A stretch of DNA of 34,031 bases, taken from positions 1 to 34,031 of IMG/VR virus record IMGVR_UViG_3300005264_000028. One strand, 5' to 3'. The notes under the pieces are model-generated. The model saw nothing but the letters and a program-made list of their open reading frames with translations. It did not search any database and was not told the origin of the DNA. Below, piece after piece: positions 4,123 to 31,690 of this stretch. Both the position numbers and the translations under genes were made by a program. Every line of letters begins with the position of its first letter. The stretch's first letter is position 1. Origin of the DNA: a virus.

Positions 4123-4165
4123 AAGTAACTGATTACAATATAATATATAATCAGTTACTTGTCAA
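4123..4165 (-). promoter_or_regulatory. Sigma70-like promoter with 26-base operator-like inverted repeat
   Basis: On the minus strand TTGACA (4160-4165), a 17-base spacer and TATATT (4137-4142) form a near-consensus promoter reading into the membrane protein, gp44, gp62 and gp32. A perfect inverted repeat with 13-base arms (4123-4135 and 4148-4160, arm AAGTAACTGATTA) is centred on the -10 box, one arm filling the spacer and the other near the start site. A dimeric regulator bound there would block RNA polymerase. No U-run follows the hairpin, so a terminator for gp45 is less likely. Confidence 0.75.
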
Positions 4166-4172
4166 GTATTAT

Positions 4173-11849: not shown

Positions 11850-14800
11850 TTAATTACACGCAGTGAAACCACAATTCATACATATTGAACAACCGCCTTC
11901 AAAAACTAATTGGTTATCGCATTCGCTACATTTTTCACCTGTATATTCACCTTCAACAAATTTAGATAGTAATTTCTTAATTTGGAATATAAATGAATAT
12001 ACAGGAGGCTGGATTTCTTCAATAGTTTTAATAATTTCTAACATTGGAATATTATGCCTTAATAATAATGATAATGTTCTAGCAATTTTAGTAACATTAT
12101 TCTGTTTTTTATGTTTATCTTTTAGCTCATCTAATAAGATATCTTTAAGATATTTTTGCGCTAAAACTTCTAAATACTCTAATACATTATCAGTCATAAT
12201 ATTTGTTTCTGTTGAATTAGTATTAACAAATAATGAAGATGGCATTTTAGTCTCATCATTTATAGTATAAAAAACATACCATTTTCTACCCTCGGAGTGT
12301 ATGGCATTCATTATTGCATCTTGAACTGGAGCAAACTTTACATCTTCTAGCACACTACTATCTTTTCTCTTTTCGTCAACTTCTTTAAGTACACCATCTC
12401 TTGAGCCATCTCTATATATTGTAATACCTTTTAATCCTTGTTTCCATGCTTCCATATAAATATTGCTTATAACTTCTTTTGTTGTATCTCCTGGTAAATT
12501 AACAGTTGACGATATTGATTGAGAAATACTTTCTTGAATAGCTGCTTGCATTTTTACTCTTTTCTTCCAGTCTATATCTTTAGATACAATAAAATTTTCA
12601 TTCTTTAAGTGTGCATTTTTACCAAATATACTATTATACTCTTCTACTAATGGATGAAATACTTCATAGTCTTTTTCTTTACCTGCTTGTTTAACAGTTC
12701 TGTTATAAGATAATGCAAATATAGGCTCAATTCCTGATGTTCCTCTAAGTATAATACCTAAACTACCATTCGGAGCAATTGTATTTAGACCAATGTTTCT
12801 AATACCAAATTTATATAATTTATCTCTATACTCATCATCTACAGACCTCCAATATTCATGAGCTCTCCAATTTGTTAGCTCGTTTTTATCTTTGTATAAA
12901 TCTAATACTCCACACTGTCCTCTTTCTTCAGCTAAGTCTATTGACTCTTCTATACTATATTGTTTTAATATTTTTTTAATACTTTTAGTAAACTCTATAG
13001 CTTCATCTGTATCATATTTCATATTCATTTTAATTAACATATCAGCTAAGCCTGTAGCTCCAAGGCCAATTCTATTTCCTAATTTTAATGCTACTTTATT
13101 CTTTTCTAATGGTTGCCTATCATAATTTAGTATATTTACATTATCTAAAAATCTAATTGATAGCTTTACTACTTTTTTAAATTTATCATAATCAAAAGCA
13201 GCATTTTCTGTAAATGAATTAATAATAAAATTAGATAGATTAATAGATCCTAAGTTACATGCAGAACCTGGTTCTAATGGTTGTTCTCCACAATTATGTA
13301 CTAATACTCCAGAGCTATTTAAAAAATTACAATCATCTGACTTTGTTATAATATAAAAATTATGATTGTCTTTTACTGTTAAATCATACACATCTTCATA
13401 TTCATTATTGTCAATAATTTCTGTAACAAAAATTCTTTCATCTAAATATACATTATTAGATTCTTTTATTTCTTTTAATTCATTTAGTCTTTCTAAATTT
13501 TCATTATCCCATTCTTTTAATTTTTCATTAATTTTTTCTTCAGACCAATCATATCTTTTACCATTAGCTTGAATATTTGATCTACTAGAATATAATGATA
13601 AATATTCAGTTCCTTTTATTCTTTGAATTGGATTATCTTTACTATGTCTTTTAGTTCTTAATATATGTTCTACTATACTTATTAATTCTAAATTATCAAT
13701 ATTATCATTAGTAGAATCATTATCAACATGATCTAAATTATAAATTTTACCATCATATTTACCTTTTTTCTCTTCCCATATCATTCTATATTGTTTAGAA
13801 TAACCGTTTATCTTACTTTTAATGTGCCTATAAGATTTTTCTGTATTTTTATTAGAAAATGTGTAAAATTTTTCTAACTCTAATCCTAAAGTAGATTTAG
13901 CTTCAACATAAGATTTTCCATCAGGTAAAGCTAATAGATGTTCTGGTGTACATTTAATAATGGAAGCATCACTTAATTTAAGAGTAATTATTTTTCTTTC
14001 TCCAGTCTTAAAAGCCACAGCTGGTTTAATTTCTACTTTCCATTGATTTTTTGAACCACTTTTTCTAGCAGAATAAACATTGAATTTTTCATCTTTATCT
14101 GATAACTCCTTAATACTAACTCCATTTCTACCATCAGCAACAGCTACTATTGTGTCACCAGTAAAACAAGGATTTGTTGATACAGGCTTAGTTTCTTTAA
14201 ATATACTAGAAGGATCATTATCTATTATGCTATCCCAATATAATAGTCCAGGCTCTGCTCCATTATAATTTGACTCTACTATTAAGTCCCATATAAGTTT
14301 AGCTTTTTCAACTCTTTCAATTACTTCATTAGAGTGAGTAGTAAATGTCATTTTCCAGTCACTGTCTTCTTCAACTGCTTCCATAAAATCATTATTAATT
14401 CTGATAGATATATTAGCATACTGGACTTTTGTTTTATCTTTACCACCTTTAATATTAATAAAATCAATTATATCTGGGTGATTAATATCCATTGTTAGCA
14501 TCAATGCTCCACGTCTTCCGTGCTGTCCAATTATTCCAGTGACACTAGAGTATAAATCCATAAAACTAGTAGGCCCTGTTGTTGTTCCTGCTGAGTTGTT
14601 AACTTTACTACCTTTTGGTCTAAGCGTAGATATATCAAAGCCAACCCCACCCCCTTTACTAAAAATTCTTGCTTGTCTTTTAGCAGTATTAAAGATTTCT
14701 TCTATACAGTCAGCTCTAATATCTTCAACATAGCAATTTGAAAATGTCGCAGTTAAATCATAAGGATTGCCTAAAGCATATAAAACTCTTCCCGCTGGTA

Positions 14801-14990
14801 GAAAATTATTTATTAAAGGTGTAAAGTCTGTATTATCAATAATCTTAATAGCACCAAACATTCTATTATATATGTCTAATAATGAGAATTCTGTGACTTC
14901 ATCATTTTTATTTTTCAAAGCATATTTATTTACAAATACATTAGACGCTAATTCATCTCCATTAAAGTTTGATAAGATTTTCTTATTCAT
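11850..14990 (-). CDS. nrdJ: Adenosylcobalamin-dependent (class II) ribonucleotide reductase with intein
   Basis: This 1046-residue precursor contains an intein of 292 residues (275-566), leaving a mature enzyme of about 754 residues. It reduces ribonucleotides to deoxyribonucleotides using a vitamin B12 radical. The first redox cysteine is C86 (FSNCYVEDI), the active-site loop NPCGEQPLEPGSACNLGSIN is split by the intein, and further class II motifs follow (GSLGIILRGTSGIEPIFA). The C-terminus ends in a zinc ribbon, CSECDNQL then CSICMNCGFTAC, typical of NrdJ and absent from class I NrdA. No nrdB is present, as expected. Start ATG with AAAGGAC upstream; the gene follows dUTPase by three bases. 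A B12 enzyme makes the phage independent of oxygen. Confidence 0.93.
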   Translation of the reverse strand: MNKKILSNFNGDELASNVFVNKYALKNKNDEVTEFSLLDIYNRMFGAIKIIDNTDFTPLINNFLPAGRVLYALGNPYDLTATFSNCYVEDIRADCIEEIFNTAKRQARIFSKGGGVGFDISTLRPKGSKVNNSAGTTTGPTSFMDLYSSVTGIIGQHGRRGALMLTMDINHPDIIDFINIKGGKDKTKVQYANISIRINNDFMEAVEEDSDWKMTFTTHSNEVIERVEKAKLIWDLIVESNYNGAEPGLLYWDSIIDNDPSSIFKETKPVSTNPCFTGDTIVAVADGRNGVSIKELSDKDEKFNVYSARKSGSKNQWKVEIKPAVAFKTGERKIITLKLSDASIIKCTPEHLLALPDGKSYVEAKSTLGLELEKFYTFSNKNTEKSYRHIKSKINGYSKQYRMIWEEKKGKYDGKIYNLDHVDNDSTNDNIDNLELISIVEHILRTKRHSKDNPIQRIKGTEYLSLYSSRSNIQANGKRYDWSEEKINEKLKEWDNENLERLNELKEIKESNNVYLDERIFVTEIIDNNEYEDVYDLTVKDNHNFYIITKSDDCNFLNSSGVLVHNCGEQPLEPGSACNLGSINLSNFIINSFTENAAFDYDKFKKVVKLSIRFLDNVNILNYDRQPLEKNKVALKLGNRIGLGATGLADMLIKMNMKYDTDEAIEFTKSIKKILKQYSIEESIDLAEERGQCGVLDLYKDKNELTNWRAHEYWRSVDDEYRDKLYKFGIRNIGLNTIAPNGSLGIILRGTSGIEPIFALSYNRTVKQAGKEKDYEVFHPLVEEYNSIFGKNAHLKNENFIVSKDIDWKKRVKMQAAIQESISQSISSTVNLPGDTTKEVISNIYMEAWKQGLKGITIYRDGSRDGVLKEVDEKRKDSSVLEDVKFAPVQDAIMNAIHSEGRKWYVFYTINDETKMPSSLFVNTNSTETNIMTDNVLEYLEVLAQKYLKDILLDELKDKHKKQNNVTKIARTLSLLLRHNIPMLEIIKTIEEIQPPVYSFIFQIKKLLSKFVEGEYTGEKCSECDNQLVFEGGCSICMNCGFTACN
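13293..14168 (-). mobile_element. Intein in NrdJ active-site loop with HNH endonuclease domain
   Basis: The intein spans residues 275-566 of the precursor. It starts at C275 (block A, CFTGDTIVAVADG), has block B with CTPEHLLALPDG near 347-358, and ends with blocks F and G, YDLTVKDNHNFYI then VLVHN566, followed by C567 as the +1 nucleophile. Excision restores TNPCGEQ, so the inserted point is the catalytic NPC motif itself. Between the splicing blocks, IYNLDHVDNDSTNDNIDNLE (416-435) is an HNH-type nuclease signature. All splicing residues look intact, so both splicing and homing may be active. Confidence 0.9.
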
Positions 14991-16291: not shown

Positions 16292-17116
16292 CTATACCTC
16301 AAAATCCTTATTAAAATCCATAGTTATATATTTTCTACTAGCCATTAAATCAGCTAAATGTAACACAACCTCCATTTTAGTCTTTGGTTTAGGTAATATT
16401 TCTTTTGGATTCTTACCTCTTTCAGTAGTATTCCACTTTCCCATGTGAGATTCAATACAATTACACATCTTATCAAAATCTTTTTGTGGATAGTCTTCTA
16501 GTTTAATATTCTCTCTTAAAAATTGAGTAATTTCTAATGGATGTTTTGGAACGGTATATTCACTACCATTAAATCCTAATTTAGCCATATCATGAAGTAT
16601 TGCGCTAGCCATTAATATATCTCTCTTTCTTTCATTAAATTCAAATATCTCAACCTCAAATAAATCTTGTAGTATTTTAACGATTGCTTTAGTATGTTTC
16701 ATTAATCCATTTGCTTCACAACTAAATGCTGGATGATACTTAAGCGTACTTGAGGCAGGTATTGACCAAACATAATCTGGTACTTTTACTAAAGCTCGAA
16801 TTAAAAATTTCTTAATATCATCAGACTTAATTAGATTTAATTCATTTTCAAATATCTTAATTTTTTGTTCATCTGTATATTCTAATAATTCAGTTCTTTT
16901 TTCAATAGCTTCAACATCATCTTTATAATCTTCTTTAATCATATCAATGAATTTATCTTCAAATCCTTGCTCTCTAATATCTGCTAATTTTTTACCTCCA
17001 GTCCATGTTAATTCTGGATAAGTGTTATTCATCTTTTTATATAAATCCCCATATATAAACCAAACTTCTTTTTTCTTAATAGATGCCACTTTTGTTAGTA
17101 CTTTATGAATATTCAT
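16292..17116 (-). CDS. HD-domain phosphohydrolase
   Basis: A 274-residue protein with an HD metal-binding domain in its C-terminal half: H141, H175-D176 (LHDMAKLG), H192 (KHPLEITQF), H224 (ESHMGKW) and D256 (LADLMAS). This set resembles HD domains of the YhaM-like nuclease and HD-GYP-like groups more than small dNTPases. The N-terminal 100 residues contain WFIYGDL and lysine/aspartate-rich helices with no recognised domain. It overlaps the methylase gene by 14 bases. A nuclease or nucleotide-hydrolase role is likely; the substrate is unknown. Confidence 0.75.
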   Translation of the reverse strand: MNIHKVLTKVASIKKKEVWFIYGDLYKKMNNTYPELTWTGGKKLADIREQGFEDKFIDMIKEDYKDDVEAIEKRTELLEYTDEQKIKIFENELNLIKSDDIKKFLIRALVKVPDYVWSIPASSTLKYHPAFSCEANGLMKHTKAIVKILQDLFEVEIFEFNERKRDILMASAILHDMAKLGFNGSEYTVPKHPLEITQFLRENIKLEDYPQKDFDKMCNCIESHMGKWNTTERGKNPKEILPKPKTKMEVVLHLADLMASRKYITMDFNKDFEV

Positions 17117-17936: not shown

Positions 17937-18479
17937 TTATATCTCCAATTTTATTAACTCAATTCCATGATCAATTTTCTTAACATTATTTTCTTTTAAA
18001 AATCCAATACTATATTCCATATTCTCATCATTTTCTTCTACATCATGTAAATGATATTCATTATTTTCTATATCAACATTGTATTGATTAAAGAGATATT
18101 CAGCATTCTCATTAAGAGTAATTGCCCAATCATAATTTTTAACTTTCATATCAATATCTAATATTGTGATTGTAATAATAGTTCCTTTGAGTTTTGCTTT
18201 AGATGTATTCTTAGTGAATTTCAATAATACTTTAATATCGCTCTTTAAGAACATACATAAATAAACTCCATTACTTTGGTCAAAATCATCGATTATTGCA
18301 TCAACAAATTTATTTAACTTTTTCTTAAATATATCTAATGTCAAATTACTTCTATCAGCTAGTCTCTTTTCAACATGAGTATCAAAATTTACTTTGTCAC
18401 CTTTCATAGTGAATTTGATAATGACATTGTTATGTCTATATTTCGTTTCTTCATTCATAAGTTCTTTAAAGCTCTTCAT
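17937..18479 (-). CDS. Unknown protein with capsid-targeting-like leader
   Basis: A 180-residue protein, first gene of the dam-dut-nrdJ transcript. The N-terminus MKSFKELMNEE fits the short leader pattern of T4-type internal head proteins. The body looks like alternating strands with a conserved-looking FLKSDIKVLLKF stretch, an acidic segment (135-155) and an IDHGIELIKLEI end. Start ATG at 18479 has only a weak AAGAAA upstream. A promoter at 18512-18540 is correctly spaced. No family recognised. Confidence 0.75.
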   Translation of the reverse strand: MKSFKELMNEETKYRHNNVIIKFTMKGDKVNFDTHVEKRLADRSNLTLDIFKKKLNKFVDAIIDDFDQSNGVYLCMFLKSDIKVLLKFTKNTSKAKLKGTIITITILDIDMKVKNYDWAITLNENAEYLFNQYNVDIENNEYHLHDVEENDENMEYSIGFLKENNVKKIDHGIELIKLEI

Positions 18480-21112: not shown

Positions 21113-21646
21113 TTGGAGCTACCATTATATGGTGATATGAATCTATTTGATTTTATAGATAAGAATATTTCATGGGATGTGTTTGTAAAAATAACTGATT
21201 TGATTGACATTGAAACTATTCCAGATATTAGTAAAGATGTAAATGGAATATCAATAGAATTTAAAAGAAAACCTAGTATTATTAGAGAAGATGCAATTTA
21301 TGACTTATTACCAATACATCATTTAGTTAATATAAGATGTAAAAATGATATACAATATTTTGCTCAATTTTTTAAAGTAGTATCAATTGATGATGGCTTA
21401 ATAAGAATGCCATTAAGAAAGTTTCAAGTAAAAGCATTAGACTTATTTGTTAATGATCCCAAAGTTGCACTTTCTTGTTCAAGACAAGTTGGAAAATGTG
21501 TGCAATTTAACACTTTTATAAATATAAGAAATAAGAAGACAAATAAAATAGAAAATATCACTATACATAGACTATATTTTCGACTTCTTATAAAAAATAT
21601 TAAAAGGAGTGTTAAAAATGGAATTAAAAGAATGCTTTATATGTAA
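21113..21646 (+). CDS. 17: Large terminase gp17-like, N-terminal part fused to N-half of a split intein
   Basis: Residues 1-128 are the N-terminal part of a T4 gp17-type packaging ATPase, ending in the P-loop fragment SRQVGK (T4 has SRQLGKTT). The next residue, C129, begins a 49-residue intein N-fragment, and the gene then stops. The missing part of the terminase is encoded at 23044-24888. Adding the two exteins gives 608 residues, the size of T4 gp17 (610). The start is uncertain: TTG at 21113 is the only usual start codon before the ATG at 21137, and neither has a good ribosome binding site. The frame is open back to 21026. Transcribed from the late promoter at 21000. Confidence 0.9.
   Translation: MELPLYGDMNLFDFIDKNISWDVFVKITDLIDIETIPDISKDVNGISIEFKRKPSIIREDAIYDLLPIHHLVNIRCKNDIQYFAQFFKVVSIDDGLIRMPLRKFQVKALDLFVNDPKVALSCSRQVGKCVQFNTFINIRNKKTNKIENITIHRLYFRLLIKNIKRSVKNGIKRMLYM
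21497..21643 (+). mobile_element. Split intein, short N-fragment (49 aa)
   Basis: It starts at C129, directly after SRQVGK. Only intein block A is present (CVQFNTFINIRNKK), followed by IENITIHRLYFRL and a basic tail. Block B is absent and instead lies in the downstream gene. This division, with a very short N-fragment, is the atypical type known from the AceL-TerL intein of metagenomic terminases, whose N-fragment begins CVYGDTMVETEDGK. Confidence 0.88.
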
Positions 21647-23051
21647 GAAGAAATTTGAGGGTAAACAAACTAAAATTAAATTTTTATGTTCTGATATATG
21701 TAGAAAAATAAGCAGGTATAATAACAAAGGAATTAATTATTATGATTTTCCTAAATGTGAAATTTGTGGAGAAAGATTTAAAGGATTAGATCAACATTTA
21801 AGACAACATCATGAACTTGATAAAAGTGGTATAGAAAAATATTTAATGAAAAATAATATCACTAAAGAAGATTTAATATATAAAGATAAAAAATATAAAA
21901 AGATTTGTATTATATGTGGTAATGAGTACTATAATCAAATACCATCATCAAAGACTTGTTCAAATAAAATGTGTAAAGAAAAACAGTATTTTAATTCAAT
22001 TAAAAGTAATGTTAGTGCTGACTATGATAGTTTATTAGAATGTAAAATTTGCAATAAAAGAACATCTAAATTAGCAAATCATATAAAATATCATCATAAA
22101 GATATTAGTGTTGATAGTTACTGTAAAAAATATAACTTAACTAAAAAAGATTTAATTCATAATAAATTAGTTGAATATATGAGTGAAAGAATTAAAGGAG
22201 ATAAAAATCCATTATATCAGCATAATGGTAAATTTTCATCATATAGTAAAAATTTTATTAAATATGATAAATTATCAGAAGATGAAAAAGAAAAAGAAAT
22301 AAATAAAATAGTTAATAAGATGAAGAAAACTAAGTTAGATAATGAACTATATCCTCAAAGAATAGAATATTGGATTAAACAAGGATACACAGAAAAAGAA
22401 GCTAAAGAAAAAGTATCAGAAAGGCAAACAACATTTTCTAAAGAAAAATGTATTATAGAGTATGGTGAAATTGAAGGATTAAAGATATTCAATGAAAGGC
22501 AGAGAAAGTGGCAAGAAACTTTAAATAATAAAAGTGATGAAGAAAAAGCAGAAATTAATTTGAAGAAAAATCCATTTAATCATTTAAACTTCACTAATAG
22601 GTATGGTGAAATTGATGGAATGATTAAATATAATGAATTTAGACTAAATAACAGTAAAACTTATTCTAAAATATCAATAGAAATGTTTGATGAAATAATA
22701 AAACAAGGAAGTTTAGACTTAAGCGATGTTGAATATAAAGAAAATGAAACTATAAGCTATGACGAAACAAATAATAAATATTATTTATATGATTTTACTC
22801 TTTACTCAAAAAAGAAAATAATAGAATTTAATGGTGATTATTGGCATGCTTCTCCTAAAAAATATAGAAATAATGAAGTAATAAAACAAATGAATAGAGA
22901 AATATCCGTAGATGAAATATGGAAGCAAGATTATATAAAAGTAAATCATGCTATTAGTAAGGGATATGAAGTTTTGATTATATGGGAAAGTGATTATAAA
23001 AATAATAAGAAAAAGATAATTAATAAATGTTTGGAGTTTTTAAATGTTTAA
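21618..23051 (+). CDS. Free-standing EDxHD (Vsr-like) homing endonuclease between intein halves
   Basis: A 477-residue protein. The N-terminal 200 residues hold several zinc-finger-like motifs (CFICKKKF, CEICGERFKGLDQHLRQHH, CIICGNEYY, CKICNKRTSKLANHIKYHH). The centre has two copies of a YGEIxG-type DNA-binding segment, and the C-terminus has the nuclease signature E403, D407 and H410 in IEFNGDYWH followed by WKQDY and GYEVLIIWESD. This is the EDxHD family described in fractured genes with split inteins. The frame opens at GTG 21609, but ATG 21618 has AAGGAG eight bases upstream. The gene overlaps the N-intein end by 29 bases and the C-intein start by 8. Confidence 0.9.
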   Translation: MELKECFICKKKFEGKQTKIKFLCSDICRKISRYNNKGINYYDFPKCEICGERFKGLDQHLRQHHELDKSGIEKYLMKNNITKEDLIYKDKKYKKICIICGNEYYNQIPSSKTCSNKMCKEKQYFNSIKSNVSADYDSLLECKICNKRTSKLANHIKYHHKDISVDSYCKKYNLTKKDLIHNKLVEYMSERIKGDKNPLYQHNGKFSSYSKNFIKYDKLSEDEKEKEINKIVNKMKKTKLDNELYPQRIEYWIKQGYTEKEAKEKVSERQTTFSKEKCIIEYGEIEGLKIFNERQRKWQETLNNKSDEEKAEINLKKNPFNHLNFTNRYGEIDGMIKYNEFRLNNSKTYSKISIEMFDEIIKQGSLDLSDVEYKENETISYDETNNKYYLYDFTLYSKKKIIEFNGDYWHASPKKYRNNEVIKQMNREISVDEIWKQDYIKVNHAISKGYEVLIIWESDYKNNKKKIINKCLEFLNV

Positions 23052-23445
23052 TTATATAACACATAATATAATATCTTTTTTCTTAAATAAATTCATAAAA
23101 ATATCAGATAAATTTATTTCTATTTTAGAAACAGATGAATATGAAGTTTTATCTTATGATGAATATAAAGATTTTAAAGGAATTGGTTTAACTAAAAAAT
23201 ATCAAATATATGTAATTACTTTAGAAAATAATATAGTTTTAGAGTGTGCAGATAATCATATTTTAATAGATAATTTTAATAATAAAATATTCGCTAAAGA
23301 TTTAACAAAAAATGATATGCTAGTTACTAATAAAGGAATTTCTAGTGTTAAGTCAATAAAAATATTAAATAAATTTGATAACATGTATGATTTAATTGAT
23401 GTTGATGACAAGCTATATTATACTAATGGATTATTAAGTCATAAC
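23044..23445 (+). mobile_element. Split intein, long C-fragment (134 aa)
   Basis: It carries block B (LECADNHILI, residues 67-76, with the conserved H72), a middle region (KIFAKDLTKNDML) and blocks F/G (MYDLIDVDDKLYYTNGLLSHN). The fragment starts MFNYITHNI, comparable to AceL-TerL (MFRTNTNNI), and its ITNG-type ending matches too. The +1 residue is threonine, an accepted nucleophile. All key splicing residues are intact. Confidence 0.9.
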
Positions 23446-24888
23446 ACTACTATTGTTACAGTATATGCTTGTTGGAAATTTATCTTTAGAGAATATAATA
23501 CAACAGCAATCATTGGTAATAAGAAATCAACAGCAATGGAAGTATTAGAAAGAGTTCAAATAGGTTATGAATCACTTCCTAAGTTTATGCAACAACCAAT
23601 AGTCACTTATAATAAAGGTGATATGAAAGGTACTAATGGTTCTAAAATATTCACATCAGCAACTACAAGAGATAGCATTTCTGGTAAATCTGTGAATGAT
23701 TTAATAATTGATGAGGTAGCAAAAATTCCATTAAATATGTGGAATGATTTTTGGGGTGCAACATATCCAGTAATTGCCTCAGCTAAAAAGAAGTCTAGTA
23801 TTAGTGTTATTATGATGTCAACACCTTATGGAGATAATCATTGGAAAGAAATAGTTGATAAAGGTAATTTAGAAGGAACTCCTAATTGGAATGGATTTAA
23901 AGTACTAAATGTTACTTATAAAGATATTCCAGAAAGAAATAATAAAAAATGGAGAGATGAGCAACTAGCAGTAATGTCATTAAATCAATTTGAACAAGAC
24001 CATGAAACAAAATTTGTTGTATTAGAAAATATATATATTGACGGTAAAGTATTAGAAAATATAAAAGTTAAATATCCAATTAGTGATAGCTTTATAAATC
24101 AAAAATTAAAAAAGTATACTGAGCAAATATCAACATATTATTCTCCAATTAAAGGACATAAATATATTATATCAATAGACCCATCAGAAATGACATTATA
24201 TTCAAAAGAAGGTGATAATGATAATATAGGTATTCAAATTTTAGATGTTACAGATGTTAGAAAAAAAATAAAACAAGTATTAACAATTAATTTTAAAGAT
24301 CATTTTGATTATTTAGAATCATCTTTAATATTATATATATTAGGTAAATATTATAATGATGCTCTAATAGTTGGTGAAAATAATATTGCTAAACAAATAC
24401 TAAATGATTTGAGAACTGATTATGAATATGATAATATATATTCTGAAAAGAAAGAAATTTATGGATATAGATTAACAAAATCAAATAAACCAATGATTGC
24501 TAAGATAATGAAATTTTTAATTGAAAATGATATACTAGAAATCAATGATGACGATACAGTAAAAGAACTTAAAGTATTTACTAAACAATTAAAAGCAATG
24601 ACACCTTTAACAGATGGTCTTGTAACATCATTATTAGCTGGATTATATTTTATGACTTGGAAGAAAAATAAAATTGAAAATTTAATTGGTGATGAATCAG
24701 ATGGAGTTTATATCAAAACTGGAAAGGAATTGTTAAAACTATCATTAGATGAAGATATTGATGAAGATAAAGAACTTTCAGATATTATTATACAATCAAA
24801 TGAAGATGAAGAATTAGTTCAAGAAATATTAAGAGATAATGGATTCTTTGATGAGCAGGAAGAAGAAACTAGTACTATAATGTTTTAG
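23044..24888 (+). CDS. 17: C-half of split intein fused to C-terminal part of large terminase
   Basis: A 614-residue protein. Residues 1-134 are an intein C-fragment ending in SHN; T135 starts the terminase C-extein TTIVTVYACW, which completes the P-loop as SRQVGK-TT. The rest is gp17-like: Walker B with D223-E224 (LIIDEVAKIP), coupling motif MSTPYGDNH, and the nuclease domain with D379 (ISIDPSE), E445 (IVGENN) and D524 (TDGLVTSL). It has its own ATG at 23044, overlapping the endonuclease stop, and GGAG seven bases upstream, so it is a real separate gene. Packaging requires trans-splicing with the 21113-21646 product. Confidence 0.92.
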   Translation: MFNYITHNIISFFLNKFIKISDKFISILETDEYEVLSYDEYKDFKGIGLTKKYQIYVITLENNIVLECADNHILIDNFNNKIFAKDLTKNDMLVTNKGISSVKSIKILNKFDNMYDLIDVDDKLYYTNGLLSHNTTIVTVYACWKFIFREYNTTAIIGNKKSTAMEVLERVQIGYESLPKFMQQPIVTYNKGDMKGTNGSKIFTSATTRDSISGKSVNDLIIDEVAKIPLNMWNDFWGATYPVIASAKKKSSISVIMMSTPYGDNHWKEIVDKGNLEGTPNWNGFKVLNVTYKDIPERNNKKWRDEQLAVMSLNQFEQDHETKFVVLENIYIDGKVLENIKVKYPISDSFINQKLKKYTEQISTYYSPIKGHKYIISIDPSEMTLYSKEGDNDNIGIQILDVTDVRKKIKQVLTINFKDHFDYLESSLILYILGKYYNDALIVGENNIAKQILNDLRTDYEYDNIYSEKKEIYGYRLTKSNKPMIAKIMKFLIENDILEINDDDTVKELKVFTKQLKAMTPLTDGLVTSLLAGLYFMTWKKNKIENLIGDESDGVYIKTGKELLKLSLDEDIDEDKELSDIIIQSNEDEELVQEILRDNGFFDEQEEETSTIMF

Positions 24889-26912: not shown

Positions 26913-26941
26913 TTGACATTTACAATATAATTTATTATATT
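26913..26941 (+). promoter_or_regulatory. Sigma70-like promoter before pseudogene and 27535 gene
   Basis: Plus strand TTGACA (26913-26918), 17 bases, TATATT (26936-26941), followed directly by AAAGGAG. It starts a transcript through the degraded gene into the 114-residue gene and the RuvC-like gene. Confidence 0.75.
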
Positions 26942-27879: not shown

Positions 27880-28565
27880 TAATATGTGGATTAGACTTGT
27901 CAATAAACTCATCCGGAATAACCAAATTTACGTTGGATGATAACTTAGATATAGTAAAGAAAGAATTTTTAGCATTTACAAGTGTTAAGAAAAATTTAAA
28001 AAAATATGATAATGGTATAGTTCATTTTTATCATAAGAATATGTTTAAAGCTCAGTATATTGAAAAGCATATTTGGATGGAAGAAAAGATAATTGATTTT
28101 ATTAAAGATGCAGATTTTGTGAGTTTAGAAGATTATGCAATGGGTGCTAGTAAAGGTCAAGTATTTAACATAGCAGAATTTACTGGATGTGTTAAGAGAA
28201 AAATATTTGATTTAGATATACCATTAAGGAAATATGATATAAACTCAATTAAAATGTTCATAACTAATAGAGGAAATAGTGATAAATCTTTAATATTATC
28301 ATTCTATAATAAAGTTGAAGATTCAGATAAATTTATTTTCCCTAAAGATATAATAGAAAATGAGAAAAGTTATGCTAATGATATTATAGATAGTTATTAT
28401 ATTGCTAAATTACTACAATTAGAATTAAAAATAAGACATGGTTTAGTATTATTGAAAGAATTACCTTTAAAACAAATTGAAATGTTCAATCGTACGACTA
28501 AAGGAAATCCTGTTAATATTTTAGCTAGAGATTTTATTTTAAAGAAAAAACTTGACATTTTATAA
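27876..28565 (+). CDS. RuvC-like Holliday junction resolvase
   Basis: A 229-residue protein with the RNase H-like RuvC fold. Catalytic acids are visible in order: D7 (IICGLDLSINSSG), E88 (FVSLEDYAMGASKG), and the C-terminal pair in NDIIDSYYIAKLL. A conserved ISIKMF-like segment and a lysine (NSDKSLI) precede the last motif, as in phage RuvC-like enzymes. It would resolve branched DNA before packaging, the job of endonuclease VII (gp49) in T4. Start is GTG at 27876, overlapping the previous stop (GTGA), with GAGG seven bases upstream. Located in the late region, consistent with a packaging role. Confidence 0.75.
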   Translation: MIICGLDLSINSSGITKFTLDDNLDIVKKEFLAFTSVKKNLKKYDNGIVHFYHKNMFKAQYIEKHIWMEEKIIDFIKDADFVSLEDYAMGASKGQVFNIAEFTGCVKRKIFDLDIPLRKYDINSIKMFITNRGNSDKSLILSFYNKVEDSDKFIFPKDIIENEKSYANDIIDSYYIAKLLQLELKIRHGLVLLKELPLKQIEMFNRTTKGNPVNILARDFILKKKLDIL

Positions 28566-28580
28566 ATACTTTTGTATATT
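28553..28580 (+). promoter_or_regulatory. Overlapping early and late promoters
   Basis: Plus strand TTGACA (28553-28558), 16 bases, TATATT (28575-28580). The late octamer TATAAATA (28561-28568) lies inside the spacer. One site could thus serve host sigma70 early and gp55 late. The TTGACA overlaps the end of the RuvC-like gene. Confidence 0.65.
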
Positions 28581-28614
28581 TGTAAATGTGAGATAAATTA
28601 AAAGGAAATAAATT

Positions 28615-29088
28615 ATGAAAACTATTAGAGAATTTGTAAGTCAAGATTTTTTATTCGAGATGGGATTTGGTAAAAAAATTATAGAGGATAAAGTTAGAAA
28701 TAGAGCTAAAAATTTTATTACTCATATAATGAGAATGATTATACTAGATTGTAGTAGTGAAGAATATAAAAAACACTTAAAAGACCCACTAATTCCATTA
28801 TCTCATGAACTAAATGATTTGTGGGTAAATAAATCTAATAACAGACTATCTAGTAAAACATATTTTAAATTATTATATACTGATTTCTTAGGAACAAACG
28901 ATCGAGTTATTAATAGAATTTATTTAAGACTAATTGAAAAATATAAAAATAATAATGTAATAATAGAGAAAGAAAATGTTAGAATTATTTTAAAGGATAT
29001 ACTAAGTAAAATATCTAATGATATGGGTTTAGATATTTTAAAAAATATGAATATTTATTTAGATGATTATACTAAGATTATAATATAG
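28615..29088 (+). CDS. Unknown protein with capsid-targeting-like leader (157 aa)
   Basis: The protein begins MKTIREFVSQDFLFE, close to the MKTxxEFI-type leader of T4 internal head proteins, and shares MKTIRE with the pseudogene at 26968. Beyond it lies a mainly helical body, with basic helices early (IIEDKVRNRAKNFITHIMR) and LKDILSKISNDMGLDILKNM near the end. It has both early and late promoter signals. Start ATG with AAAAGGAAA upstream. The gene ends in a 12-base tandem repeat that duplicates the stop codon (TAG at 29086-29088 and 29098-29100). No family recognised; packaging with the head is a hypothesis. Confidence 0.75.
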   Translation: MKTIREFVSQDFLFEMGFGKKIIEDKVRNRAKNFITHIMRMIILDCSSEEYKKHLKDPLIPLSHELNDLWVNKSNNRLSSKTYFKLLYTDFLGTNDRVINRIYLRLIEKYKNNNVIIEKENVRIILKDILSKISNDMGLDILKNMNIYLDDYTKIII

Positions 29089-29101
29089 ATTATAATATAG
29101 A

Positions 29102-29145
29102 TTTGGGATGCTAATCACTACCCAAAAACTCCTTTAATAGTGATT
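29102..29145 (+). ncRNA. Possible H-type pseudoknot RNA
   Basis: Two interlocked helices can form: TTTGGG (29102-29107) with CCCAAA (29121-29126), and AATCACTA (29113-29120) with TAGTGATT (29138-29145). The loop of the first contains the 5' arm of the second, the order of an H-type pseudoknot, with the two helices adjoining at 29120/29121 and so able to stack. It follows the stop of the 28615 gene and precedes the terminator. Confidence 0.5.
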
Positions 29146-29161
29146 GAGAATTAACTTACAA

Positions 29162-29199
29162 GAAGAAGCCTAATTATAGAAATATAATTAGGCTTCTTC
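29162..29199 (+). terminator. Strong 17-bp hairpin with GAAA loop
   Basis: A perfect 17-base inverted repeat (29162-29178 and 29183-29199, arm starting GAAGAAGCCTAATTA) closes on a GAAA tetraloop. It is the strongest hairpin seen in the window and separates the 28615 gene from the late promoter at 29218. A typical U-run is missing (GATTTGTGTT follows), so termination efficiency is uncertain; RNA 3'-end protection is another role. Confidence 0.75.
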
Positions 29200-29217
29200 G
29201 ATTTGTGTTATGTAATT

Positions 29218-29225
29218 TATAAATA
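29218..29225 (+). promoter_or_regulatory. T4-type late promoter
   Basis: Exact TATAAATA on the plus strand just after the terminator hairpin, 24 bases before the ATG of the kinase-like gene. It starts the transcript for that gene, two membrane proteins and the tail-fibre genes. Confidence 0.7.
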
Positions 29226-29249
29226 TAAGTAAATATATAAAGGTAAATT

Positions 29250-29813
29250 ATGAATTTCGAACAATTATTAGAAAAATTTAGTGAAGTAAGAAAGACAGTT
29301 GAAGATTTCTGTAAAAATAATAAAATATCTTATAATACTATTAAGTATCTTGATGGTGGTATGCAGGGTGAGATATATAGCATAAATAATAAACTAGTAG
29401 TTAAAGTATTAGATACTAATAAATTTAAAAGCGATATAAAAGCTTACAAATCTATTATGAAACATAAATATAAAACTACAAATGAAATTAATTATATTTT
29501 TGAAGATAAAAATAGAACTTTTATAATTCAGAAAAAATTAAAACAATTAAAATTACAAGATGAAGAAATATTTAGTGATATTCATTCTGTTGTAAAGAGT
29601 GAAGTAGGAGGTGATTATAATATCTTTGATTGTGATTTAGACGAGATTGAAGAGAAGTATGATAGTCATTTTGAAGAAGATGGGGATGCTCATTTTGATT
29701 TTTTAAGAGAAGCTCAAAAAGAATTAAAAAGTAAATTTAAGTTTAAAGATTGGCATAATGAAAACTATATGATGAATGGAAGTGAATTTGTAATTATAGA
29801 TGGATTAAAATAG
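29250..29813 (+). CDS. Mini kinase-like protein (187 aa)
   Basis: The protein contains a compact protein-kinase-like pattern: a glycine-rich loop YLDGGMQGEIYS (33-44), VVKVL with the ATP-binding lysine, an FIIQKKL hinge region, and at the C-terminus FKDWHNENYMM followed by FVIIDGL, resembling the catalytic HxDxxxxN and DFG segments with altered order (DWHNEN). Normal kinases need 250 or more residues; this one lacks much of the C-lobe, while residues 95-150 are acidic. It may be a small kinase, a phosphotransferase or a pseudokinase. Expressed late, first gene after the terminator. Confidence 0.65.
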   Translation: MNFEQLLEKFSEVRKTVEDFCKNNKISYNTIKYLDGGMQGEIYSINNKLVVKVLDTNKFKSDIKAYKSIMKHKYKTTNEINYIFEDKNRTFIIQKKLKQLKLQDEEIFSDIHSVVKSEVGGDYNIFDCDLDEIEEKYDSHFEEDGDAHFDFLREAQKELKSKFKFKDWHNENYMMNGSEFVIIDGLK

Positions 29814-30161
29814 ATGAATATAACAGATAGAAAAAGAATTTGTAGATTCGATAAAGAACAAATAATTAAAGATATAGTAAAAATATCAGAAAATTATGAT
29901 AGTCATAAATATGAATTAGAAACTGAATTAGATGAATATTTATATGAATATGATTTCTTCAAGTATGAAAATACTAAAAATAAATTTAATGTATATAGAT
30001 TCTCATTTTCTATATATATAATTATAATATTATTTTTAGGTTTATTTATATTACCTTTAAGGTGGATTATAACTGGTAATTATTATGTGAGTGGTAAAAG
30101 TAAGTTTGCTAAATTTATTAGTGTTTGGTATGATAGAATACAAGGTAAAAAATGTATATAA
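29814..30161 (+). CDS. Single-pass membrane protein (115 aa)
   Basis: One hydrophobic segment (about 64-82, FSIYIIIILFLGLFILPL) follows a charged N-terminal half (RFDKEQIIKDIVKISEN). The C-terminal part is basic and aromatic (KSKFAKFISVWYDRIQGKKC). It starts immediately after the kinase-like gene stop (TAGATG). A holin is possible from size and late position, but one segment and the context do not prove it. Ends overlapping the fibre gene. Confidence 0.7.
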   Translation: MNITDRKRICRFDKEQIIKDIVKISENYDSHKYELETELDEYLYEYDFFKYENTKNKFNVYRFSFSIYIIIILFLGLFILPLRWIITGNYYVSGKSKFAKFISVWYDRIQGKKCI

Positions 30162-31690
30162 TTAGAGAAAAAGAAAATAAAACCATAACACCTATTATTA
30201 TTGATAGAAAAGAAACCATTATAAAATCTTTAGATTTACCGGATGATATAATAAATGAAGAGATATTAAGCAATGATATTTTGATGTTGAAATTACACTT
30301 ATTATCTAAGATCAAAAAATCTAATACTGAATTAAGTGATAAAATATCAAAAGTTAATTCTGATATTATTGGTCGTTTAAGCATAGATAAAATCAATATT
30401 AATAATTTATTGACTAATACTAAAGAAACAATTAAAGGTCAGTTAAGTGATACTAAAACATCAGTTAGTATAAGAATAGATAATGTAGTTAAAAGTATAG
30501 ATGATTTTCAATTAAAATTTGTCGAAAGTATACATATAATTAATCAAACATTTGATGAGATACGAGAGTATAATAAAAGAAATGAAGCAGTAATAAATTA
30601 TAATAAAATTCTAACAGATAAAGAAACAAAAAGATTAGATAATATCAAGATTAATACAGAAGATTTTGATAGAAGTATGGAAAATTTAGTAAGACAAATT
30701 GGTAGTATTACTGATAGAATTGAAATAATGATAAATGAGCAGAATATTGAAATTAAAAAATATTCTGATGAAAAAGATAAAGAATTAAAGAAAGTAATAT
30801 TTACTAAAATTTGGCAGGAAATAAAAGCATTTAAAGGTGAAATTTCTCATAGCGAAAATAAGATTAAAGAGAAAATAAATCATAATAAAAAGAATATTGA
30901 AAAGAAGTTAGATGAAACAAATATTAGAGTTAAGAATTTAAAGCAAAATCAGAAAGAAGATAAAAATAAATTAAGCAATGACATAGAACAAAGTAATATT
31001 GATTTAAACAAACTTTTGACTAGCATTAAATCGAGTTTCGATAAAGATATACATAATATGTCATCTGAAACTAAAAGTCTCATAGATCGTCTTTATGATA
31101 GTATTTCTGAAAAGTACTATAGAATAGAAGATAAGTTAAAAGATTTTATAACACCAGATGATATTTCATCTTATATTCCAGTCAGTAAAGAATCTCCAAC
31201 TAAGATTATTAATATTAAAGCTAGAGATGGGATAAATGGTATTGATGGTAAAGATGGTAAAGATGGTAAAAGTATTGATGGTAAAGATGGTAAAGATGGA
31301 AGAACGCCTAAACATCAAATTGAAAGCAATTTTAATGGATTCCAATTAAGATTCGAAAATCCAGATGGAACTTGGGGTCAATGGATAGTTATTCATAGTG
31401 GTGCTGGAGGTGGAGATTCTATTAGTGGTAATGTAGGGGGATCAACTCTAATAAATGAATTTTTCACTTTATCTTCAACTGATATTACAAATAAATATAT
31501 AACTTTAGCTTATGTTCCAGATATAATGAGTTCTATTATAATGGAAATAAGTGGTGCTCCTCAACAATTATTGAATGTTGATTATGAAGTGTCTGATAGT
31601 AATAGTTATCGAATTACTTGGGAGGGTTTTGGTATGGAAAATATATTAGAGATAGGCGAAAAAATTAATATGAATTATTCAAGGGTGTAA
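30152..31690 (+). CDS. Tail fibre with long coiled coil and collagen-like repeat
   Basis: A 512-residue structural protein. Residues 1-345 are helical and highly charged, with repeats such as LSDKISKVNSD, KIKEKINHNKKNIEKKLDET and KNKLSNDIEQSN, indicating a long trimeric coiled coil. Residues about 359-385 are a collagen-like G-x-y stretch (GINGIDGKDGKDGKS and GKDGKDGRT). Then comes FQLRFENPDGTWGQWI, a module frequent after phage collagen repeats, and a strand-rich C-terminal domain. It overlaps the preceding gene by ten bases. It probably forms the fibre shaft or base for receptor binding. Confidence 0.8.
   Translation: MYIIREKENKTITPIIIDRKETIIKSLDLPDDIINEEILSNDILMLKLHLLSKIKKSNTELSDKISKVNSDIIGRLSIDKININNLLTNTKETIKGQLSDTKTSVSIRIDNVVKSIDDFQLKFVESIHIINQTFDEIREYNKRNEAVINYNKILTDKETKRLDNIKINTEDFDRSMENLVRQIGSITDRIEIMINEQNIEIKKYSDEKDKELKKVIFTKIWQEIKAFKGEISHSENKIKEKINHNKKNIEKKLDETNIRVKNLKQNQKEDKNKLSNDIEQSNIDLNKLLTSIKSSFDKDIHNMSSETKSLIDRLYDSISEKYYRIEDKLKDFITPDDISSYIPVSKESPTKIINIKARDGINGIDGKDGKDGKSIDGKDGKDGRTPKHQIESNFNGFQLRFENPDGTWGQWIVIHSGAGGGDSISGNVGGSTLINEFFTLSSTDITNKYITLAYVPDIMSSIIMEISGAPQQLLNVDYEVSDSNSYRITWEGFGMENILEIGEKINMNYSRV

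Follow-up and report, generated by a model that had tools for sequence, protein, structure and literature searches.

What role, if any, is played by the 161-nt gap at 29089–29249 between two listed ORFs of IMG/VR virus record IMGVR_UViG_3300005264_000028, where two interlocked short helices are followed by a long perfect hairpin? The window, by which we mean the whole stretch of DNA analysed, comprises 34,031 bases at 25% GC. Its ORFs match phage families of SSB, clamp loader, DNA polymerase, NrdA and TerL, and the phage is labelled T4-like here because tblastn with TerL and DNA polymerase leads to T4-like phages at about 30% identity. A TerL alignment search of IMG/VR provided 80 loci for comparison (29–35% identity), which are the best 80 of 444 confirmed, and nearer kin may exist. 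The SSB of the phage (ORF 777–1724) belongs to phrog_224. Stop-codon read-through and TAG recoding were considered and rejected: the SSB, clamp loader and DNA polymerase ORFs span their profiles nearly end to end and unbroken, and TAG is also the stop codon of the SSB ORF (the 36 ORFs use TAA 26, TAG six and TGA four times). The NrdA-like ORF (11850–14990, minus strand, 1046 aa) has HNH endonuclease matches at about residues 382–454 and probably carries an intein. At its start, the TerL ORF (23044–24888) aligns with the part of Campylobacter phage CP220 TerL that is annotated as an intein, the preceding ORF (21609–23051) weakly matches the endonuclease family phrog_13076, and 21113–21646 is matched by 41 of 86 loci; 21113–24888 is possibly a TerL gene with its intein and homing endonuclease in separate, overlapping ORFs. 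The protein of 16292–17116 (minus strand; phrog_5889, E 1.3e-50) shows about 35% identity to SPO1 gp32.6 and similar Bacillus phage proteins, and such a protein is unexpected in a T4-like phage.

The gap is flanked on the plus strand by a 157-aa ORF (28615–29088) without an assigned function, which weakly matches the unknown-function family phrog_31822 (E 2.6e-4), and by a 187-aa kinase-like ORF (29250–29813), the match of which to Pfam Kinase-PolyVal (E 0.0022, 18.4 bits) does not reach the cut-off of 27. The mean pLDDT of their predicted structures is 40.7 and 35.6, respectively, and these models were left out of account. Just 5′ of the 157-aa ORF lies TTGACA-N17-TATATT (28552–28580, plus strand), one of six exact copies in the window, the others being at 4165–4137, 11117–11089, 18540–18512 and 20979–20951 (minus strand) and 26913–26941 (plus strand); any copy at all occurred in 13 of 300 shuffles. 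Five of the six fall in gaps between listed ORFs (at least 80 aa) and one overlaps the end of a RuvC-like ORF. These motifs are likely to be phage early promoters, the label `early' following from their sigma-70-like consensus. The kinase-like ORF, which starts 50 nt past the hairpin, is probably a separate transcription unit; the TATAAATA before it (29218–29225), which we take to be a T4-late-type motif, is given little weight because 28 such octamers occur on both strands of the window. At another of the early-type promoters (4165–4137), the −10 box is flanked by a perfect 13-bp inverted repeat (4160–4123, minus strand; AAGTAACTGATTA, 12 nt, TAATCAGTTACTT), 3′ of which are AAAGGAG and a 70-aa ORF (4099–3887, minus strand) that is hydrophobic-looking, like a small membrane protein. 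This repeat may be an operator-like dyad or a leader hairpin.

One element of the gap is the perfect 17-bp stem with a GAAA loop that had been noted in the preliminary description and is present on the plus strand at 29162–29199, with fully (100%) complementary arms at 29162–29178 and 29183–29199. It begins 73 nt past the stop codon of the 157-aa ORF and 16 bases past the last strand of the interlocked helices. Of the perfect hairpins in the window it is the longest. Dinucleotide shuffling of the whole window, repeated 200 times, never produced one of at least 17 bp (the longest had 15 bp); the hairpin is clearly non-random. Folded alone it has an energy of −24.5 kcal/mol, and every pair has a probability of at least 0.96 in transcripts 28588–29207 and 29089–29207. 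A G-C foot (GGC, 29191–29193) is followed by the U-rich UUCUUCGAUUUGUGUU (29194–29209), and a terminator scan calls the hairpin with the tail GATTTGTGTT, which has the five or more T in eight bases that the scan looks for. The U-tract is interrupted by C and G, and its first part (UUCUUC) lies within the stem, paired to GAAGAA. The earlier remark on the lack of the U-run expected in an ordinary terminator is thus correct for an uninterrupted run and incorrect for a U-rich tail as such. Since an early-type promoter precedes the 157-aa ORF, the hairpin sits where the early unit should end, and a stable, G-C-containing hairpin at the presumed end of a unit is one of the features of an intrinsic terminator. 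We therefore consider that the hairpin and its U-rich tail are probably an ordinary intrinsic terminator of a short early unit, with a pseudoknot possible in the 3′ UTR. The earlier proposal of a structured 3′ element after the 28615–29088 ORF is well supported at the sequence level, while an intrinsic terminator fits better than an element made special by the lack of a U-run. Among the terminator calls in three stretches covering the window, only this hairpin has more than nine pairs. Elsewhere in the window, the number of calls is close to that in shuffled sequence (0 versus 2.2 expected in one stretch and 3 versus 1.8 in another), so routine use of such terminators by the phage is unsupported. 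Further points against the terminator reading are the broken U-tract and a possible pairing of approximately 29092–29113 with the 3′ arm and the tail (starting near 29190), which at −15.3 kcal/mol is weaker than the hairpin.

The same parts could be read as a cis-regulatory leader of the kinase-like ORF, with a conditional terminator in the hairpin and, in the pseudoknot, an aptamer or protein-binding operator. The order of pseudoknot, terminator and ORF start is indeed that of a terminator-type riboregulator, and the phage has a phrog_224 SSB, T4 gp32 being known to bind a leader pseudoknot (PMC535899). However, the strongest pairing of 29089–29158 to the 5′ arm of the hairpin amounts to −5.7 kcal/mol, so that no strong antiterminator against this arm is evident. 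In addition, no Rfam family is matched at its gathering score anywhere in the window, and what separates the pseudoknot from the start codon is a 17-bp hairpin, whereas the gp32 operator is less structured and UUAAA-rich there (PMC535899). Such a leader is very unlikely.

The interlocked 6-bp and 8-bp helices reported earlier for 29102–29145 (plus strand) are likewise present as described, and their order and feasible loops are those of an H-type pseudoknot. In the first helix (S1, 6 bp), TTTGGG (UUUGGG in RNA; 29102–29107) pairs with CCCAAA (29121–29126); in the second (S2, 8 bp), AATCACTA (RNA AAUCACUA; 29113–29120) pairs with TAGTGATT (RNA UAGUGAUU; 29138–29145). Loop L1 is ATGCT (5 nt), L2 has 0 nt and L3 is AACTCCTTTAA (11 nt). 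With S1 of 6 bp, S2 of 8 bp and set loop limits, thresholds that were fitted to the observed pseudoknot, it is unique in the window; any such structure occurred in 16 of 300 shuffles and one as stable in seven of 300. In a generic scan (S1 of at least 4 bp, S2 of at least 5 bp) it is the best on the plus strand, a stronger, A/T-rich candidate lies on the minus strand at 4172–4123, and 30 of 200 shuffles equal or beat it somewhere in the window on either strand. Because of the fitted thresholds and this outcome of the generic scan, the pseudoknot taken alone is weakly significant. Its place in the 161-nt gap beside the best hairpin of the window adds weight, this being a consideration chosen after the fact.

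The pseudoknot may accordingly be fortuitous. Two short inverted repeats would then simply overlap in AT-rich DNA without a function in any RNA, and the hairpin alone would matter, an explanation that is compatible with the terminator reading. Besides the shuffles, it is favoured by the equal pairing score (35) that is found downstream of 17937–18479 when G-U pairs are allowed and by pattern scans of IMG/VR and GTDB, which returned no homologue. It is opposed by the rank of the pseudoknot on the plus strand, by its adjoining the top hairpin and by a survey of this architecture on both strands of the window and the 80 T4-like loci. Hairpins of at least 10 bp with at least three G-C pairs gave 46 readings, those with less than 80 nt upstream being dropped, and the pseudoknots upstream of them numbered four versus 1.35 expected at −12 kcal/mol or better, two versus 0.40 at −15 kcal/mol and one versus 0.05 at −18 kcal/mol, this last being the window itself, the case that prompted the comparison. 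The order of pseudoknot and hairpin is not established as a shared design. In G-C content, the 44-nt pseudoknot segment does not stand out from other inter-ORF sequence, as it is equalled by 867 of 4438 windows; among those listed, the first 50 outside the pseudoknot are all at 44–318, a contig end that may be coding. On balance, we put a fortuitous origin at a little under an even chance.

Energetic considerations bear on whether both helices would form together. The energies are −5.1 kcal/mol for S1 alone and −5.4 kcal/mol for S2 alone, and a rough estimate for the pseudoknot, based on stacking energies plus a fixed penalty, is about −11.5 kcal/mol versus −6.7 kcal/mol for the best nested fold of 29089–29160. 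Nested folding, in which both helices at once cannot be represented, favours S1 (0.67–0.96) over S2 (0.01) in transcript 28588–29207 and S2 (0.56–0.72) over S1 (0.14–0.27) in transcript 29089–29207; a long-range helix between the region 5′ of S1 and bases past the hairpin is a competitor. We would place the existence of the pseudoknot in RNA at about even.

The preliminary description also suggested that the element forms a small RNA. An independent transcript of about 100 nt would start near 29102 from its own promoter (TATAAT, 29091–29096), carry the pseudoknot at its 5′ end and finish at the terminator, and both the perfect TATAAT at the right distance 5′ of S1 and the terminator-like hairpin at the 3′ end agree with this. 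The phage's early-type promoters, however, have a full TTGACA, and no −35 element comparable to those of the TTGACA-N17-TATATT promoters is found 5′ of the pseudoknot, nor is a properly spaced −35 hexamer seen by eye. Of 67 promoter-like sites, the 60 listed include none that ends at 29096, and such matches are at the shuffled level (67 versus a mean of 70.1). Both TATAAT copies, moreover, derive from a tandem duplication: two 12-nt copies of AGATTATAATAT (29075–29098, plus strand) straddle the stop codon of the 157-aa ORF and yield two in-frame TAG codons together with the two TATAAT boxes. The frame past the second TAG (29098–29100) is open for 17 codons, which is unremarkable. A separate small RNA is unlikely.

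The search for relatives addressed whether the helices are conserved. No relatives emerged when IMG/VR was scanned with one protein at a time, the queries being the products of the 157-aa and kinase-like ORFs, RuvC, TerL and DNA polymerase. Neither flanking ORF was matched by tblastn at 1e-3 in 86 loci (the 80 TerL loci and six named phages) or by tblastn against named phages, and blastn of 28100–31000 against named phages gave two 54-base matches, both outside the gap. A pattern of S2 plus CCC occurs in 20 IMG/VR contigs, none with the full S1; TTTGGG lies upstream in two of them (L101 and L106) but with CCCCGG instead of CCCAAA. One 39-nt arrangement is common to 11 of the 20, and in all 20 the frame is open for at least 100 codons. 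We rejected these contigs as chance matches in coding DNA on account of the open frames and the lack of a full S1. The S1/L1/L3 pattern had no match in IMG/VR, and S1 plus the 5′ strand of S2 had four in GTDB genomes, none with the 3′ strand of S2 within 45 nt. Overall, these scans, which covered IMG/VR, phage records and GTDB genomes, yielded no homologous locus in which the pairing of S1 and S2 could be compared. At E up to 10, Rfam returned five matches to 351 bases, all below their gathering scores, four resting wholly or largely on the hairpin and one on AT-rich coding sequence; the best was NrrF (26.4 bits versus 60 needed), on the minus strand and resting on the hairpin and its AT-rich flank.

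Returning to the intrinsic terminator of a short early unit, we propose the following course of events, in which promoter use and timing, termination and RNA protection are what we infer. RNA polymerase would start at the TTGACA-N17-TATATT promoter (28552–28580), transcribe the 157-aa gene and stop at the 17-bp hairpin with its U-rich tail, so that transcripts from this promoter would not run on into the kinase-like ORF or those beyond it. In bacterial mRNAs a 3′ hairpin generally serves as a cap against 3′-to-5′ exonucleases, and this hairpin would stay on the transcript as such an ordinary cap. Just past the stop codon, the 3′ UTR may also fold into the pseudoknot, which in that case would stabilize it further or keep it compact; exonuclease blocking by the pseudoknot is possible. 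A more elaborate 3′-UTR module, in which the pseudoknot and long terminator hairpin would form a nuclease-resistant 3′ end or a released trans-acting RNA that, for example, binds the phage SSB or a host RNase in early infection, seems quite improbable. Should the element be a terminator only, its value is confined to delimiting the transcription units of a divergent phage; a real and functional pseudoknot would make the locus a case of a 3′-UTR pseudoknot in a DNA phage. A literature search found no 3′-UTR pseudoknot beside a phage terminator, which is not proof of absence in print.

Among known systems, the type III toxin–antitoxin loci share the order of parts. In ToxIN a pseudoknot RNA, a terminator and a toxin ORF follow one another, as they do in CptIN, and the antitoxin RNA contains tandem repeats (PMC8860590). 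The present locus, if read in this way, would have the pseudoknot as RNA antitoxin and the downstream ORF as toxin. It differs in being a single unit without tandem pseudoknot repeats, its sole repeat being the 12-nt duplication outside the pseudoknot, and the downstream ORF, which is weakly kinase-like, matches no entry under the name of a type III toxin in Pfam, PADLOC or NCBIfam, libraries that may not model every type III toxin family. TenpIN is also a type III toxin–antitoxin system. We regard a locus of this kind here as extremely improbable. The gene 32 leaders of T4, T2 and RB69 resemble the locus in having a two-helix pseudoknot in a T4-like phage with an SSB gene. There the pseudoknot, which gp32 recognizes, leads into UUAAA-rich sequence that is less structured and extends to the ribosome-binding site (PMC535899), whereas here it follows a stop codon and precedes a 17-bp terminator hairpin, which intervenes where that sequence would be, and does not lie ahead of the SSB gene, the leader of which (777–1724) gave short, weak candidates only when scanned for pseudoknots. 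A type III antitoxin, a gp32-type operator, recoding and an independent small RNA are thus not supported. The closest likeness is to the intrinsic terminators of bacteria and phages, with which the element shares a strong hairpin, a G-C foot, a U-rich tail and a position after one gene and before the next ORF; it departs from them in its long perfect stem and in a U-tract broken by C and G, the first part of which is paired with GAAGAA. The hairpin, with its possible pseudoknot, is most likely a further example of this already known kind.
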